Source: a virus
Reading direction: 5' to 3' (one strand)
Length of the DNA: 30,841 nt
IMG/VR virus record: IMGVR_UViG_3300001460_000113
Span: 1 to 30,841 of that record
A program made the position numbers and the translations under genes. Under the pieces are notes generated by a model. It was not told the DNA's origin and ran no database searches. It worked only from the letters and a program-made list of their open reading frames with translations. Position 1 is the first letter of the stretch. Each line of letters opens with the position of its first letter. This document shows, piece after piece, positions 3,634 through 17,806 of the stretch.

Positions 3634-4194
3634 ATGACAGGCATTATTCCACCCAAATTATTTGTAAAAAGATCTGATGTTCCAATTCAATCGTTAATGG
3701 ATATGGACTTTGCTCCATCAAGAGAAACACCAGCTCTTGTATATAAAGAAGGGCACCCAGATAAACCCCACGATGATAGAAAAACAACACTTAAAATGGA
3801 TATTAAGCCTCAGGAATATCCTGAGGTCTGTAAGGCCTTATTGAATATTATTTCTATATGGGATAAAGCTCTTGATCCTGCTGACTTTGTTGTATCTGAA
3901 TTTAACTATCTCAAGTATGGAGTAGGTGATCTATTTAAAAAGCATAAAGATAGATTACCAGATAATTCTGGCAGTCTAAAACCTCGCCTATTTTCTACAT
4001 CAACTATTATAAAAGTCTCTGATGACTTGAAGGGTGGGGAGTTTCGCATATGGCCTGAAGACGAGTCAACTACAATTGAATGTAACTTAGATGTTGGTGA
4101 CACAATATTCTTTTCTTCGCAGACTATGCACGAAGTAAATACAGTATATTCAGGAAACAGGGAAGTTCTTGTTGCCTGGATTACGCATAAATAG
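3634..4194 (+). CDS. 2-oxoglutarate/Fe(II)-dependent oxygenase 2
   Basis: 186 residues, one base after the gp33 stop. The catalytic set is complete: H104-K-D106 (FKKHKDRLPDN), distal H166 (SSQTMHEVNT) and 2OG-binding R176 (SGNREVLVAWI), with a jelly-roll core (STIIKVSDDLKGGEFRIW, then VGDTIFF). Residue numbering is almost the same as in the oxygenase at 2184 (H100/D102/H166/R175), but overall sequence similarity is low, so the two are distant relatives rather than a recent duplication. It sits between the transcription coactivator and gp32. Substrate unknown. DNA, nucleotide or protein hydroxylation are all possible, and the neighbourhood does not decide between them. Confidence 0.87.
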   Translation: MTGIIPPKLFVKRSDVPIQSLMDMDFAPSRETPALVYKEGHPDKPHDDRKTTLKMDIKPQEYPEVCKALLNIISIWDKALDPADFVVSEFNYLKYGVGDLFKKHKDRLPDNSGSLKPRLFSTSTIIKVSDDLKGGEFRIWPEDESTTIECNLDVGDTIFFSSQTMHEVNTVYSGNREVLVAWITHK

Positions 4195-10439: not shown

Positions 10440-11528
10440 GTGGCATTTTTCAGAAACTTTCCAGTAGTAAATTATAATTTTGGAGATGAGATTAGTCCTG
10501 CTATCTTTCAGAACCTTACAGCATACATTGATTTAATAGATCAAGTCAAAGACGACATAAGTTATTATGAGAAATATTTTATAAAAGACAACATGAGGCC
10601 TGACACTTTGTCGCAAGAACTTTATGGTAATACTAGTTTCTATTGGATGTTTTACTTACTAAATGACAATTTAAGACAACAAGGTTGGCCTCTCAGTGAA
10701 CAAGATGTCTATGAACTTGGAAAGAAGTATTATCCCAATACGGTATTATCAACTACAAATAGTATGGTGTCCTATGGCAAGGTTGGTGATATTGTAGCTA
10801 CTACTCCATTTTCTAATCCTACTTTTAAAGGAAAGATTCTGGAAAGGAATTACGATTTAGGTCAGTTAACGGTCAAACCTATAATTGAAGTCCGTTCAAT
10901 TACTGTCACTAATGGTGGTTCAGGATACACATCGGTTCCCACAGTAACCATTACTGGTGGTAATGGAATAGGTGCAACCGCTGCAGCTGCTATTGCAAAT
11001 GGAGCAGTAACAGCAATTACCGTTACAAATGGTGGTGATGATTATACAGCTGTACCTACTGTAAAGATATCAGCTCCTGACACACCAGCTGATACAGATT
11101 CTGTTTTAGCTCAAGCTACAGGAACAGCAGTGCTTTCAGCATATTCTATAAATGCTAGTGAAGCATCACAAGTATTACTTCACTCTGTACCAGGTGAACA
11201 AGATGAGACTCAATGGTCATTACCAATAACAAAAAGAATATTTGTGTGGGATTCTGTAGTACAGTATAATGCAACTCATCATTTTGAAAATGCAGACGGT
11301 ACTTGGGGTGATCTGACATATATTCCTGTCTCTGGATATGGAGTTAATAATCGAAAAGGAAATGAAAGCGAGTCATCAAACTCAACAGCTGGGTATGGAT
11401 CATTAATACCTATCACATATACAGACAGATTGAAAAGAAGTAATGATGAGCTTCGTATAATTAGAGTTTTAAAACCTAATGTAGCTACTCAAATAAACTC
11501 AGAATATCAGAAGTTATTAAAGCAATAG
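10440..11528 (+). CDS. 53: Baseplate wedge protein gp53 with repeat insertion
   Basis: 362 residues from GTG 10440. T4 gp53 is only 196. The N-terminal part is clearly gp53 ([78 protein letters not shown]). The C-terminus returns to a gp53-like end ([20 protein letters not shown]). Between them lies an added beta module with two near-identical 18-residue repeats, residues 154-171 and 193-210 ([18 protein letters not shown] and [18 protein letters not shown]). In T4, gp53 joins wedges into the baseplate ring. The insertion may decorate the baseplate or help oligomerise. The same module type appears in gp8 of this phage. Confidence 0.85.
10899..11069 (+). repeat. Two copies of an 18-residue beta repeat in gp53
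   Basis: Copies at 10899-10952 and 11016-11069 encode [18 protein letters not shown] and [18 protein letters not shown], 39 residues apart. The conserved core is V-x-N-G-G-x-x-Y-T-x-V-P-T-V. A Gly/Ala-rich linker lies between them. Confidence 0.85.
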
Positions 11529-11529
11529 A

Positions 11530-12876
11530 ATGTCACAAGCTGAACAAATAAAAATATTAGAAGTATCAATTCGTTCCGAAAGATTCGTGGACGGAAAGAA
11601 ACTATTGGTTGCTGGTGACGGAGCAGGTGTGGGTGTCGAGCTTGTAATTTATGAAAACATTTACATGCCATACCTTACCGGTGCTATTTTAATTCAAGAT
11701 GATAATAACTTTTATGGTGAAATAGGTATTAACGGAACAGAAAGACTTGTGGTCAGGATGCAGACTCCAGGTGCAATTGAAGAAATAGAAAAGACATTTG
11801 TCCTTAGCACTGTCCAAAAACAAATAAAAGTAAACGATCAATTATCACAGCTACTGTTTACATTAACAGAAGATCATGGATACTTTAATGAGCTGCAATT
11901 GATTAATAAATCTTATAACGGAACAGGTTCTGAGATTATACAAAAAATACTTGAAGATAATACTAATAAAAGTATTAAACCAGATTATCATCTTGCCCCT
12001 GCACAAGGCAAGTTTCGGTACATTGTTCCTTGGCAGAGTGCTTATCAAGCAATACATACAGTATTAAATTATATGACGACAGACAACTTCTTACCGTATT
12101 TCTTATTCTCGTCAATAACTTCGGACAATTTAATATTAACAGATCTTGAAAGCATATTGAAAAGAGAGCCTTTCACAAGACCACTCAAGCAGGCTTTTTC
12201 ATATGCTGTGAATAAAAAAGAAGAAAATTCTATTATAGAAAAAGCGTTTAACATAGTTGAAATAAACAGTTCAGAAATGAATGATACACTTTCACTAGCT
12301 AAAATGGGTGCAGTTGGAGCATCAGGACAAAGTATAGATACAACATCAGGTAGCGCTACTGACTTCCGTATTGATATGAAACAACAATATAACTTTCTAA
12401 ACGATGCTAATGTGATTAGCTTGAAGGAAGATAATTATCCAATAGACGATCTCTTTAGAGTAGACACTCAACCTAATACTCCAATCACTGACTTAGATAG
12501 TAAGCGATATTCAATAATGGCATCTCTACCATATGATAATATCAATGGACTTGTATCTGATAATAATGCATCTCAACAAATTGTAATTAAAAATAATTAT
12601 ATAAAACTATTAGCTAATAATGCATTTGAAATTACAGTACCAGGATTTGCATTTGGGGTAAAGCATACTAATCGTTCAGTTGGGCATACAGTTGACATAG
12701 CAGTTCTTAAAGAAGGTAATGATGTTATGGATAACGCAAATCAAGTTGATCCAAGACGATCAGGCACCTTTGTAATGTTAGCTAAAAAGCATGTGTTTAA
12801 TTTAGTTGAAGAATCACATAATGTTGTTGTTAATGTTGGTAGAATAACCGAGCCTAAAAGGATTCAAAGAACATGA
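11530..12876 (+). CDS. Baseplate central hub protein (gp27-like)
   Basis: 448 residues (T4 gp27 391). It opens IKILEVSIRSERFVDGKKLL and has tube-like strands (VELVIYENIYMPYLTGAILI, INGTERLVVRMQTPG, TFVLSTVQKQIKVNDQLSQL) and FRYIVPWQSAYQAIHTVLNY. The C-terminal part (NNAFEITVPGFAFGVKHTNR, SVGHTVDIAVLKEG, GTFVMLAKKHVFNLVEESHN) fits the trimeric hub proteins of the gp27/gpD class, which connect the tube to the spike. Assignment rests on fold-like patterns and on its place directly before the OB-domain/lysozyme gene, the T4 partner of gp27. Its TGA overlaps the next ATG (ATGA), so hub and spike proteins are translationally coupled. Confidence 0.7.
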   Translation: MSQAEQIKILEVSIRSERFVDGKKLLVAGDGAGVGVELVIYENIYMPYLTGAILIQDDNNFYGEIGINGTERLVVRMQTPGAIEEIEKTFVLSTVQKQIKVNDQLSQLLFTLTEDHGYFNELQLINKSYNGTGSEIIQKILEDNTNKSIKPDYHLAPAQGKFRYIVPWQSAYQAIHTVLNYMTTDNFLPYFLFSSITSDNLILTDLESILKREPFTRPLKQAFSYAVNKKEENSIIEKAFNIVEINSSEMNDTLSLAKMGAVGASGQSIDTTSGSATDFRIDMKQQYNFLNDANVISLKEDNYPIDDLFRVDTQPNTPITDLDSKRYSIMASLPYDNINGLVSDNNASQQIVIKNNYIKLLANNAFEITVPGFAFGVKHTNRSVGHTVDIAVLKEGNDVMDNANQVDPRRSGTFVMLAKKHVFNLVEESHNVVVNVGRITEPKRIQRT

Positions 12877-13820
12877 ATTTTTATGGAGATGATACCAGAT
12901 GGTTTGTTGCCAAGGTAATTAACTGGGAAGATAATATTCAAGGTCGTGTAAAGATTAGAGTTCTGGGTTTACATTCAGAAGATATCCCTAACAAAGATCT
13001 TCCATGGGCTAAATGTGTTCTACCTACCACAGAAGGTGGGACCTCGGGTATTGGTAAAATACCTCAGATGCTAAACGGTGCTTTTGTATTTGGAATGTTT
13101 TTAGACGGAAAGTTGTCACAAATGCCAGTAGTGTTGGGTAGTATGAGCCAATTTGAATTACAATCAACTCCTCAAAAAAAGATATCAGCGCAAAGTGGAA
13201 CTGGCGATGTGTCAGCGCATGCATTTACTGTTGATGGAGTAATTCTTAACCCAAGTTTGGTTGATATGTTTAACAATGGTGAAGCCAACTTAGAAACAAG
13301 AATAGTAATCGTTATGCAGTTTTTATTAGATGCTGGTATTGCTAATCCAGAAGCAGCTGCTGGTGTTGTTGGTAATCTAATAGGAGAATCAAATCTTGAA
13401 CCAGATGCTGTAGGTAGTGTAGGTGAAGTTGGAATAGCTCAATGGAACCCTTCGGTTAATGTACAAAGATTACAACAGCTACAAGCATATACCAAGGATA
13501 AGTTTCCAGGTAAAAACTATGAAGATTTCTTTGTCCAATTACAATTTTTAGTGTATGATATGAAAACAAATGGATCACATAAAGTGTGGAACAATCTTAG
13601 TAACAGAGCTATCAGTCACACATTCAATGTCGATGTTGATTTTACTCAGCAAAAAGATACTAACGCAACATTTTTCTTTTTAAAAAAATATGAGGTACCA
13701 GCAGATATTTCAAACGCACTGGATACAAGGCAAAAGCATGCACAAGTTGCATATGATACTTACAATGAGTCATTGCGATTAACAGCTGCATATGCTGCTA
13801 ATTCAGGAGGTGTTGTGTGA
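12873..13820 (+). CDS. gp5-like spike base with tail lysozyme domain
   Basis: 315 residues. The N-terminal OB-fold (residues about 9-95: RWFVAKVINWEDNIQGRVKI, DLPWAKCVLPTTEGG, NGAFVFGMFLDG, MPVVLGSM) is that of T4 gp5. A phage tail lysozyme domain follows (about 140-300: VIVMQFLLDAGIANPEAAAG, VVGNLIGESNLEPDAVGSVG, EVGIAQWNPS). E172 in the GESNLEP motif is the likely catalytic glutamate and GIAQW 187-191 the substrate-side motif. It should cut peptidoglycan locally during injection. T4 gp5 has lysozyme and C-terminal beta-helix in one chain. Here the helix is on a separate gene downstream. The lysozyme family differs from the T4 type. It overlaps both neighbours (ATGA and GTGA). Confidence 0.82.
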   Translation: MNFYGDDTRWFVAKVINWEDNIQGRVKIRVLGLHSEDIPNKDLPWAKCVLPTTEGGTSGIGKIPQMLNGAFVFGMFLDGKLSQMPVVLGSMSQFELQSTPQKKISAQSGTGDVSAHAFTVDGVILNPSLVDMFNNGEANLETRIVIVMQFLLDAGIANPEAAAGVVGNLIGESNLEPDAVGSVGEVGIAQWNPSVNVQRLQQLQAYTKDKFPGKNYEDFFVQLQFLVYDMKTNGSHKVWNNLSNRAISHTFNVDVDFTQQKDTNATFFFLKKYEVPADISNALDTRQKHAQVAYDTYNESLRLTAAYAANSGGVV

Positions 13821-15331
13821 GCATTAGAGTAAATATATCAAATGTGTTTAGTGATCTACAAAAGACATTAAATCTTTCTCCTGTTAAAAAACAAGTTGCG
13901 TCTGTTCGTAAAAATTATGATACGTCAGTAACTACATTATATAAGCCGCAGGGTAGTACAAGTCATGGATTCAAACAACTAGCCAGTACTGCTACTGATG
14001 TGCAAACAAATGTTAAGAGCTCTGTTCCTAACCAAGTTGTAGACCAGGTTGGCATTGCACAGTTAGATGTTAGCGCGTCAGAAAAAGATTTAAAAAAAAT
14101 ATTAAGTGGTTCTGATAGAACAGATTTAGAGACAATTACTGGCAAGTCAGAACTTGTTACAGATGGTGTTCTTGACGTTGTTATAACTGCTCCATTCCCA
14201 GAAGCAATAGCAACTACTCTTAAAAATACTACCACATTGAATAGTGGGACAGTAACAGGTGTGGTGCAAAGTAATGTTGAGGTAGCAAATTCATCAGATG
14301 AAGATGTTGAAGATCCAAGCACCAACTCTATAAAAAGTATTGTGGGTAATGTATTTCCGGATGATAATTCTAGTTCTGTCCAACGTAGTACCGCTGTTTC
14401 TACACTAACAGTAAACAGTATAGATCTATCAAATCGTTCAGATGAAGGATTTCCTTCTTTGGTAGAAAACACTGTTGAGCAATCTTCACACCCTACTAGA
14501 ACCTTGTTGAGTGGAGTAACAACATCATCTATATCTAATGCTGATCTAAAGCGTATAATAGAACTTCAAAATAATGGAAAAACAAAAGCAGCAGCAGATA
14601 TTTTAAGTAGGTATTCCGATAAGACAATCCCAGAGTTAGAAGCTACTATTAGTCAGATTAATAATAAAGCTAGTGTACAAATAAATGAAGCTGTTGCCCC
14701 ACGCAATCTGAGTGTAAAAAGAACTGATAATTTTCCTAATGTTTGGAGAGAAGCTACTACCGATGTCACAAATGCCAATGTGTTTTCTCCTGTCATAGGT
14801 ACAGAAATAACAGCCGAAGTACTTAACTTACGAAGAGATGTTACAGAAATAGTTATTCAGTTTTTAGGACGACCAGGAGCTACAATACAAGACTATCATA
14901 ATTTGTATAGTCAAAAGTATAGCATAGGTTTTAATCCTCATTTTTATATTGGTTATGATGCTATCACTTATCGTGGTAGACCATTAGAGATAGAAGCAAG
15001 CTCACTACCAACAACAATAACTAATAACCATTACCAAAGAAGTATTATTATTAGTGTTAATATCAATGACGAATCTTACAGTCATAAGTTTGCTCCTAAT
15101 CAAAGGGATCGTCTATTATCACTGATTGACCATATCTTAACAGCTAAACCTGGTATGCAAGTTTATTCTAGTAAAGACGTTGGATGGAATTGTAGTGCTT
15201 ATGAGGATGCGTTAGATGTTCAATTATTTGTAAAACAAAAGTTGGGTAAGGTTAATATACCTAACTACGACCCTCGAAATCAAGATCCATTAACGTCAAC
15301 TGCACTTGCTAATTTTTATGTGGGAACTTAG
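13817..15331 (+). CDS. Spike-region protein with degenerate amidase-like C-terminal domain
   Basis: 504 residues from GTG 13817, behind GGAGG and overlapping the previous TGA. Residues 1-330 are Ser/Thr/Val-rich, probably extended or fibrous. Residues about 340-470 follow the N-acetylmuramoyl-L-alanine amidase/PGRP pattern of T7 lysozyme: a first strand EIVIQFLGRPG, PHFYIGYDAITYRGRPLEIE, a strand RSIIISVNIN, a helix QRDRLLSLIDHILTAKPG and a VYSSKDVGWNC end. The zinc ligands are not kept. The first-strand histidine position holds Q348, the H of the usual GHRD holds S452, and only C459 remains. If the alignment is right the domain binds murein without cutting it, or is purely structural. The gene lies between a tail lysozyme gene and an M15-peptidase spike gene. 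Confidence 0.6.
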   Translation: MSIRVNISNVFSDLQKTLNLSPVKKQVASVRKNYDTSVTTLYKPQGSTSHGFKQLASTATDVQTNVKSSVPNQVVDQVGIAQLDVSASEKDLKKILSGSDRTDLETITGKSELVTDGVLDVVITAPFPEAIATTLKNTTTLNSGTVTGVVQSNVEVANSSDEDVEDPSTNSIKSIVGNVFPDDNSSSVQRSTAVSTLTVNSIDLSNRSDEGFPSLVENTVEQSSHPTRTLLSGVTTSSISNADLKRIIELQNNGKTKAAADILSRYSDKTIPELEATISQINNKASVQINEAVAPRNLSVKRTDNFPNVWREATTDVTNANVFSPVIGTEITAEVLNLRRDVTEIVIQFLGRPGATIQDYHNLYSQKYSIGFNPHFYIGYDAITYRGRPLEIEASSLPTTITNNHYQRSIIISVNINDESYSHKFAPNQRDRLLSLIDHILTAKPGMQVYSSKDVGWNCSAYEDALDVQLFVKQKLGKVNIPNYDPRNQDPLTSTALANFYVGT

Positions 15332-15334
15332 AAG

Positions 15335-17806
15335 ATGAGTGATTTTACTAATCTAGAAACTAAAACTTTAGCAAATGGTATATCTGCAAGTGCTGCAGAG
15401 GATCCCTCAGGTCAATTTCCTCGACCTGAGTATTATAATAAAGAAAACACTAATACACAAGCATTGGGTGAAATAAAGAATAGTTTAAAATGGGCTGCTT
15501 CTTCTGAAGGTATAGCTCAAGTTGACGCAGTAGAAACCGTTAGCTCAATATATCCTTACAATCAAGTCGCGCGTTCAATAACAGGTCATGTTTATGAAGT
15601 AGACGATACTCCTGGAAATGAACGTATATTAATTAAACATGCAGATGGAGCAGGAATAGAACTTGGAGTAGATGGAAGTGTATCAATTAGTGCACTTGGA
15701 AATAAGATTGAATGCACAGGTGGTGACCAACACATAACAATTGTGGGTGATGCTAAACTAGAGTATCAAGGTAATGTTGATATGAAAGTGACAGGAGAAT
15801 TCAACCTAGACTGTAATGAATTCAATGTCAACGTCAAAAATAATAAAACAGAAACAGTTGGTGGCGCTGAAACTAAACAAGTGTTCAAGGGAGTGACAAA
15901 TTCAATAGTTGGCAATGTCGCTAATTTTGTTACCGAGCAAGTGACCGACACTGTTTTAGGTGGCCATCAATATAATATTAAAGGTAATACTGATTATAAT
16001 ATTAATGGTAATGTAAATCTTTTCTCGAGTGGTAAGATGAATGTTACAGCAGAAGATTATATTAATATAGCCTCAGATAATGTAACTGCTTCTGGCAATC
16101 AAATGACTATCCAGGGAGGCAGTGGAGTTATTGGTGGCACTGCTATGGACTTTGTAGGTAATGGTGCTATCTTTGATCAAGGTATTACTGCCCCCACCTT
16201 TCATGGAGATTTGAATGGTAAAGCCGCAACTACAATTAAGCAAGAGTATGCTCAGTCAGCAACAGCAGGTGGAACCGCTATTACTAATACAGCGACTCCA
16301 ACCATCAAAACACCAACTTCAACTTTAGTATTAACATATTTACAAAAAGCTGCAGGTGGTATTCGTAAAGTTAAGATTGACCTTGAAAATCATCTAAAGG
16401 ACTTTATGGATAGAGGAACAAGATATGATGGTATAGCAACACAGACTATGACATCAAAAGCAGCTAGATCAAAACTAAGAGATGTAGCTAATAGAAATAA
16501 TACTAAGTTTATTGGATCGTTGATAGAGGAAGGTACTCTCAGCTCAGACTACAATAATCCTACGCCAGTGGGTGTGGGTAGAATTGTAGATGGACAATCT
16601 ACTACATTCCAAGCGTCAAGATTTGCAGATGCTATATCAGCAACCAATAATGTAATCCACATTCCTAGAAATGTAGTTAAGCAATTCTTACCTGATCCTT
16701 TATTCAATCCATTAAACTTTGGTACTGAATCATTAACTGCTATTACTGCAAAGACAAAGTTGGCTCCCAACGTCTCTGTATCTAAGTTCTTAGGAACAGA
16801 AGATCCAGTAAATATAAAATATATTAGAAGTGAGCAAACAAAGAAAGACATTCTTAAGCATCTATATTTACAAACGCATATACTAAAACAGATTAGAGTT
16901 AATCAACAAGAGTTTGAAGGAGTGACCCTTGAGGTGACAGAAGGTCTGTATCGCCCAGGATCAGGCGAAACAATTACTCCAGGTAGTATAAACGATTTAA
17001 AATCCAAAGGTCGCGCTGTTGTCTACAAAGCAGTAGATTCTCAAGGTATTGTTAACAACGCTCGATTGTTTGACATTGCAGTATTCTTCAAAGATAATGC
17101 ATACTTTGATGAAATGATACTTTCTTATGATACAAATGAATCAATAAACGATACACCAATCTTGTCAGCAAGATTAATTATTACTATGCCTGAGTTGGAC
17201 GATTCGTTTAGTGGAACATTTAGAAGAGAGGTATCTACTGAATTTAACAATAATAAACTAGCACAAGGCGAGTTAGTTGAAGCTCTTGCTCAGAAAAAAG
17301 ACATAGTTCCTAATATTGATAATATACAGCTTTTAGATAACAACAAAACAATGGGTATCAATATAAACACAGGACTTGATTATACCCCTCAAGTTGTTAG
17401 ATCTGGATTAACCCACCCTGAGGTTGATAGACAATCTGAGCTGAACTTAACTGTTCTGTTGATGGAAAATTATACACAGATGCAACGTTTGTTTGGAGAG
17501 AAGCTACTTATTAATGATGCTCTTCCAATAACAAAGACGTCCAGAAAGCCACCAAGTCAAGGTGGAGGGTCACAACACTGGTATGGCCGTGCTATTGATA
17601 TCGATACTTCCCAAATGAACAATGCGCAAAAATCTAAGCTAGTAAAAGCAGCTAGTGAAGCTGGCTTTAAAGGATTTGGTTTTGCTAATACATTCTTACA
17701 TGTTGATCTAGGGACAAGGAGATCTTTTGATTATAATAATACATCATATGCTGGCAAAACTACTGATTATTGGTTTAGGTGGGTTAGACAAAATGTTGTT
17801 GTATAA
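15335..17806 (+). CDS. gp5-like beta-helix spike with C-terminal M15 peptidase
   Basis: 823 residues. Residues about 70-120 (YPYNQVARSITGHVYEVDDT, PGNERILIKHADGAGIELGV) carry the gp5/VgrG linker motif. Repeating beta-helix strands follow to about 300 (DMKVTGEFNLDCNEFNVNVK, HQYNIKGNTDYNINGNVNLF, MNVTAEDYINIASDNVTASG). Residues 340-680 are unassigned. The C-terminus is a zinc D-Ala-D-Ala carboxypeptidase/endopeptidase of family M15: S746-Q-H748 ... G751-R-A-I-D755 and F-L-H789-V-D791, with all three metal ligands (H748, D755, H789) present. The chain thus combines a membrane-piercing needle with a peptide-bond-cutting murein hydrolase, replacing lysozyme as the enzyme attached to the beta-helix. 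Last gene of the unit that starts at 9363. A late promoter follows its stop. Confidence 0.82.
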   Translation: MSDFTNLETKTLANGISASAAEDPSGQFPRPEYYNKENTNTQALGEIKNSLKWAASSEGIAQVDAVETVSSIYPYNQVARSITGHVYEVDDTPGNERILIKHADGAGIELGVDGSVSISALGNKIECTGGDQHITIVGDAKLEYQGNVDMKVTGEFNLDCNEFNVNVKNNKTETVGGAETKQVFKGVTNSIVGNVANFVTEQVTDTVLGGHQYNIKGNTDYNINGNVNLFSSGKMNVTAEDYINIASDNVTASGNQMTIQGGSGVIGGTAMDFVGNGAIFDQGITAPTFHGDLNGKAATTIKQEYAQSATAGGTAITNTATPTIKTPTSTLVLTYLQKAAGGIRKVKIDLENHLKDFMDRGTRYDGIATQTMTSKAARSKLRDVANRNNTKFIGSLIEEGTLSSDYNNPTPVGVGRIVDGQSTTFQASRFADAISATNNVIHIPRNVVKQFLPDPLFNPLNFGTESLTAITAKTKLAPNVSVSKFLGTEDPVNIKYIRSEQTKKDILKHLYLQTHILKQIRVNQQEFEGVTLEVTEGLYRPGSGETITPGSINDLKSKGRAVVYKAVDSQGIVNNARLFDIAVFFKDNAYFDEMILSYDTNESINDTPILSARLIITMPELDDSFSGTFRREVSTEFNNNKLAQGELVEALAQKKDIVPNIDNIQLLDNNKTMGININTGLDYTPQVVRSGLTHPEVDRQSELNLTVLLMENYTQMQRLFGEKLLINDALPITKTSRKPPSQGGGSQHWYGRAIDIDTSQMNNAQKSKLVKAASEAGFKGFGFANTFLHVDLGTRRSFDYNNTSYAGKTTDYWFRWVRQNVVV

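Follow-up and report, generated by a model that had tools for sequence, protein, structure and literature searches.

A degenerate Amidase_2 domain between the halves of a split gp5 in a T4-like phage, probably kept as a structural part of the baseplate hub

Known systems and the setting of protein X

Pseudoenzymes are well known in cell-wall biology, and the closest described systems for the domain studied here are the zinc amidases of the Amidase_2 family (PF01510), such as T7 lysozyme and the endolysin LysC (6ssc, 6srt), and the non-catalytic PGRPs (PGRP-SA, PGRP-SD and PGRP-LC), which have the amidase fold without zinc. T7 lysozyme uses His17, Tyr46, His122 and Cys130, and in the Ts2631 endolysin substitutions at the equivalent positions strongly lower activity (PMC4573324). 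PGRPs bind peptidoglycan and retain a Tyr in the groove, which is invariant even in the non-catalytic ones (PMC8124813). T4 gp5 and gp5 of the Caulobacter phage Cr30 carry OB, tail lysozyme and beta-helix modules, in Cr30 within one chain that has Phage_lysozyme2 and an M15-like C-terminal motif. The T6SS effector TseP brings both an amidase and a lysozyme module to a spike apparatus. With one of its amidase-inactive variants the apparatus still assembles, and other such variants failed to complement (PMC11893102). By analogy, TseP may serve as an example of an amidase domain that need not be active for the apparatus to assemble; it is a single bifunctional effector with both activities present, and the text consulted reports no natural reciprocal loss (PMC11893102).

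Here, we analysed protein X of a T4-like phage represented by a virus record of 30.8 kb; the window, as we use the term, is this whole stretch of DNA (Table 1). The C-terminal domain of X resembles T7 lysozyme and LysC in fold (~130 residues) and by a detectable sequence relationship, but it lacks the zinc His, the second His, the third ligand and the catalytic Tyr, and the protein that it ends is a predicted hub protein rather than a lysis enzyme. It shares the zinc-free amidase fold with the non-catalytic PGRPs; however, the groove residues of X and its degenerate homologues vary. As in TseP, amidase and lysozyme modules are found together, and the modules of T4 and Cr30 gp5 are all present at the locus, but gp5 in the window is split into two genes (gp5N and gp5C) with X between them, whereas Cr30 has these modules in one chain.

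The gene order near X was tail-tube cap, gp53, a phrog_350 tail protein (gp27-like by its position), gp5N, X, gp5C, gp25 and gp6, and the Pfam and PHROG matches (Gp5_OB, tail lysozyme, beta-helix, gp25/gp6 order) identified a T4-type baseplate hub/spike cluster. From the conserved position of X in syntenic loci we infer that it sits in the virion hub. The N-terminal ~308 residues correspond to a homologous region that is longer in amidase-intact relatives. Judged by gp6, the closest cultured relatives were Kyanoviridae: Phage C48C1 (38.5% identity over 98%), Pelagibacter phage HTVC008M and Methylophilales phage Melnitz. Among cultured phages neither the whole of X nor the spike middle domain had a match, and the C-terminal domain of X alone reached at best E ~1 or worse; one scan of bacterial and archaeal genomes confirmed no relative of the degenerate domain. 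Elsewhere in the window, gp53 (10440-11528) has an extra repeat-like stretch at residues ~128-233 that it shares with virion proteins such as head closure Hc2 and baseplate wedge, and there are two 2OG-Fe(II) oxygenase-like genes (2184-2747 and 3634-4194), one above the Pfam cut-off and the other just below.

Table 1. Features of the protein X locus (window coordinates)
Feature	Coordinates	Strand	Basis
gp5N: Gp5_OB and Phage_lysozyme2, Glu172 kept (codon 13386-13388)	12873..13820	+	Pfam, alignment
Protein X, 504 aa, GTG start; predicted hub protein with C-terminal putative pseudo-amidase	13817..15331	+	ORF and alignment
X residues 1-308, no Pfam match	13817..14740	+	
X residues ~330-480, Amidase_2/T7-lysozyme fold that lacks the zinc site	14804..15256	+	profile and predicted structure
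Q348, first zinc His position	14858..14860	+	alignment
P374, catalytic Tyr position (T7 Tyr46)	14936..14938	+	alignment
S452, second zinc His position (GHxD)	15170..15172	+	alignment
C459, unique to X, off the third-ligand column	15191..15193	+	alignment
E463, third-ligand position (Asp of DPGFD in intact homologues)	15203..15205	+	alignment
gp5C: beta-helix, middle domain, C-terminal Peptidase_M15_3	15335..17806	+	Pfam, PHROG
LAS/M15-type peptidase tail of gp5C: H748, D755, H789	17282..17803	+	Pfam, motif

Fold and catalytic positions of the C-terminal domain

An earlier note on this DNA had assigned the C-terminal part of X to the T7 lysozyme/amidase_2 fold, and both profile searches and AlphaFold modelling confirmed this observation for ~150 residues. 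Pfam gave no Amidase_2 match for X, and its single-sequence matches were weak (phrog_1493 endolysin, E 0.004; PDB amidase 6srt, E 0.05). A profile of eight degenerate homologues reached the amidases 6srt (E 4.5e-5) and 6ssc (E 5.5e-5), and a three-member degenerate profile aligned by hhalign with the intact same-slot homologues over 173 columns, with a probability of 96% and E 2e-9. The intact same-slot homologues were above the Pfam Amidase_2 cut-off, as seen for the syntenic L007, L010, L012 and L013 with their motifs VVHW, IGYHY, GHND and DPGFD; no Amidase_2 match was obtained for the window, L006, L004, L218, L175 and L069, and L194 scored 15.9 bits, below the cut-off of 26.

The AlphaFold model built with degenerate and intact homologues (model 1) had a pLDDT of 77.5 and matched 6ssc with Z 11.5 and 1lba with Z 9.9. 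The model built with degenerate homologues only (model 2) had a pLDDT of 80.2 and a pTM of 0.83, and it matched 6ssc with Z 13.1 (rmsd 3.0, 135 aligned) and T7 lysozyme 1lba with Z 12.2 (rmsd 3.4, 129 aligned), which argues against a different fold. Since the alignment behind model 2 was free of intact homologues, the fold could not have been borrowed from them. The best 50 matches listed in the structure search with model 2 were all amidases, endolysins or PGRPs of the amidase fold. By fold and by sequence homology, the X domain belongs by descent to the Amidase_2 / T7 lysozyme-PGRP superfamily.

The ligand positions of X were read from the alignment to intact homologues. It supported the earlier proposal that the first zinc His and the GHRD His had become Q348 and S452, and it placed E463 at the third-ligand position and P374 at that of the Tyr. 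The suggestion that C459 is a kept ligand had to be abandoned: its column contained no Cys in any other of the 88 non-redundant homologues and is not the third-ligand column, so we rejected it even as a vestigial ligand. With all these residues replaced, and with an Amidase_2 score below the gathering threshold, X does not have the features of an active zinc amidase (EC 3.5.1.28), and its amidase domain is predicted to be without catalytic activity. As for ligands at shifted positions, no alternative three-ligand set was visible in the sequence. Among the His columns that are well conserved in degenerate homologues, those of H375 and H405 hold His in the intact enzymes as well, next to a full zinc site, and the sole new one, H361, is partly conserved.

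Amidase, lysozyme and peptidase states across homologous loci

Scans of IMG/VR yielded, among the matches listed, 88 non-redundant domains in the gene slot between the gp5-OB/lysozyme and the gp5 beta-helix spike. A survey of their ligand positions separated two sets, with His-Tyr-His-Asp kept in 53 of the 88 and not in 35 (among the matches listed), and this sampling was directional: most intact homologues came from searches with intact queries, the best 80 being listed, and most degenerate ones via the spike middle domain, whatever the state of X. Some losses were partial, His1 being the only residue left in L218 and Tyr the only one in the L188-L203 group. One locus (L204:3407-8287) retains all four amidase residues, the lysozyme Glu and a peptidase-like tail, and is a candidate for a three-enzyme ancestral state. 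By its neighbouring genes L204 groups with the degenerate clade; by its amidase domain it falls, with modest support, at the base between the intact and degenerate sets. Parsimony required at least two changes of amidase state, and the amidase site may have been lost a single time. Because intact and degenerate homologues occupy one slot, with L204, L218 and the L188-L203 group as partial intermediates, it is possible to trace how an enzyme turned into a presumed structural part.

The position of X between two active-looking hydrolases, pointed out in the earlier note, was also upheld: gp5N carries Phage_lysozyme2 with Glu172 and gp5C ends in Peptidase_M15_3 with H748, D755 and H789. Thus the fold, the lost zinc site and the flanking hydrolases of that proposal stand, but not the role given to C459. 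From the conserved GNLxxES motif and general knowledge of lysozymes, we take Glu172 to be the catalytic Glu; our literature search found no source stating the catalytic Glu of Phage_lysozyme2, and the window lysozyme had no match by sequence among solved structures.

In degenerate loci, the beta-helix, the middle domain and a tail of 150-190 aa together make up one long gp5C chain, whereas in intact loci the middle domain is mostly a separate gene of ~200 aa and there is no tail. Among the matches listed, a peptidase tail was present in 32 of 33 scorable amidase-dead loci (that of L214 counted through its second ORF) and in 1 of 47 intact loci. Many tails were above the Pfam cut-off for M15_3, VanY or M15_4; the tail types of L063, L069, L165, L204 and L217 have the LAS-like His...Asp...His motif only, with a His-Asp spacing one residue shorter in L204, and the tail of L225 lacks the first His. 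For several tails peptidase activity is thus suggested by the motif only. The spike-tip domain (window 17282-17803) also varies in kind within the clade (M15_3, VanY, M15_4 or motif-only) and differs between the window and its close relative L063, as if it had been swapped repeatedly.

The gp5N lysozyme Glu showed the reciprocal distribution: 24 of 25 degenerate loci have it, as against 2 of 45 intact ones. Counted jointly, 43 loci had the amidase residues without the lysozyme Glu, 24 the lysozyme Glu without the amidase residues, two had both and one had neither (all among the matches listed). In the 43 of 45 amidase-intact loci listed that have lost the presumed catalytic Glu (L012, L086, L112 and L124 among them), the lysozyme fold is itself retained: the Glu-less gp5N of L012, L086 and L112 is still above the Pfam cut-off for Phage_lysozyme2, and Glu-less lysozyme domains had dN/dS of 0.01-0.08, indicating purifying selection.

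These loci are related, and the reciprocity comprises one supported independent contrast, or two on an unsupported tree; with one or two evolutionary contrasts, a sign test has no power and the pattern could be a coincidence. Compensation is also not strict, since in L242 (L242:2950-6348) a dead amidase is not accompanied by a peptidase tail, and L222 (L222:3329-8251) has neither the lysozyme Glu nor the amidase ligands but keeps the tail. LAS-like motifs, with weak Pfam support, were already found in Cr30 gp5 and in two Melnitz hub proteins; the peptidase tail may therefore predate X, which sets back the idea that gain of the peptidase caused loss of the amidase.

Selection on the domain and its possible role

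In unsaturated pairs, dN/dS of the degenerate domain was 0.087 (L064-L065), 0.073 (L175-L179), 0.15 (L167-L169) and 0.03 (L203-L190), compared with 0.045-0.06 for amidase-intact pairs. The conservation ratio relative to intact homologues was 0.37 within 2 residues of the catalytic columns and 0.56 elsewhere (permutation p 0.005). Purifying selection acts on the degenerate fold, and the relaxation is specific to its old active site. The catalytic residues are gone and the structural core is conserved; R340, H375, R386-P389 and P445-Q448 of the X domain are largely conserved in the degenerate set.

The strong conservation of the core and the fixed gene position favour a structural part, and we consider it likely that X is a pseudo-amidase kept as such in the split gp5 hub, the ancestor having had redundant hydrolases. 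We infer the following evolutionary direction and structural role. The Amidase_2 domain of X would descend from an active zinc amidase and would no longer cut peptidoglycan. The ancestor of the phage group probably had three redundant hub hydrolases, namely the tail lysozyme, the amidase and, at the tip of the spike, a peptidase of the LAS type. In the window lineage the lysozyme and the peptidase would cut, with the amidase turned into a structural part, and in the sister lineage the amidase would cut, with the lysozyme deprived of its catalytic Glu and the peptidase tail absent. Reciprocal loss in two lineages, both folds being retained, would be the simplest account, and X could serve as a connector or scaffold between gp5N and gp5C, keeping the two joined.

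The purifying selection could also reflect binding of murein, with the X domain, like non-catalytic PGRPs, holding the spike on peptidoglycan while the lysozyme and the peptidase cut. The zinc-free amidase fold and the placement between two intact-looking hydrolases would suit such a module, which we nevertheless think unlikely: relaxation within the domain is greatest in the region of the old active site, the residues at the former ligand positions differ among sub-clades, which is unexpected for one conserved ligand, and the Tyr of non-catalytic PGRPs has been replaced by Pro (P374 in X), Gln or other residues in 26 of the 32 dead sequences and is kept in 6. The variable groove residues and the loss of this Tyr disfavour a conserved PGRP-like binding site; the X domain could bind peptidoglycan in a non-canonical manner. 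The same strong selection, together with the conserved polar residues that remain (H361, H375, H405 and D454), might point to a hydrolase that is still active through a rebuilt or shifted site, metal or non-metal. This seems very improbable, given that H375 and H405 accompany the full zinc site in intact enzymes, that no new three-ligand set is conserved and that C459 occurs in X alone. Least credible is simple decay, in which the amidase would be a functionless relic in the course of being lost. The loss of all catalytic residues and the intermediate states would fit it, but we rejected it on the domain dN/dS of 0.03-0.15, and it is also at odds with the many divergent loci whose frames are full-length and with the closeness of the predicted fold to active amidases.

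In a search of the open literature, the titles and abstracts contained no paper on a phage-hub pseudo-amidase. The hub of this ocean T4-like phage group seems to retain retired enzymes as building parts, and from the structural reading of X we tentatively propose, as a possibility, a wider pattern for marine T4-like hubs with tandem hydrolase folds: catalysis may be allotted reciprocally, the dead lysozyme or amidase may become an obligate structural subunit, and the pseudo-amidase may link the split gp5 halves. If the reciprocity is true, an annotation as 'tail lysozyme' or 'amidase' from the fold alone would often be wrong in these marine phages, and the activity that opens the wall during infection would become testable.
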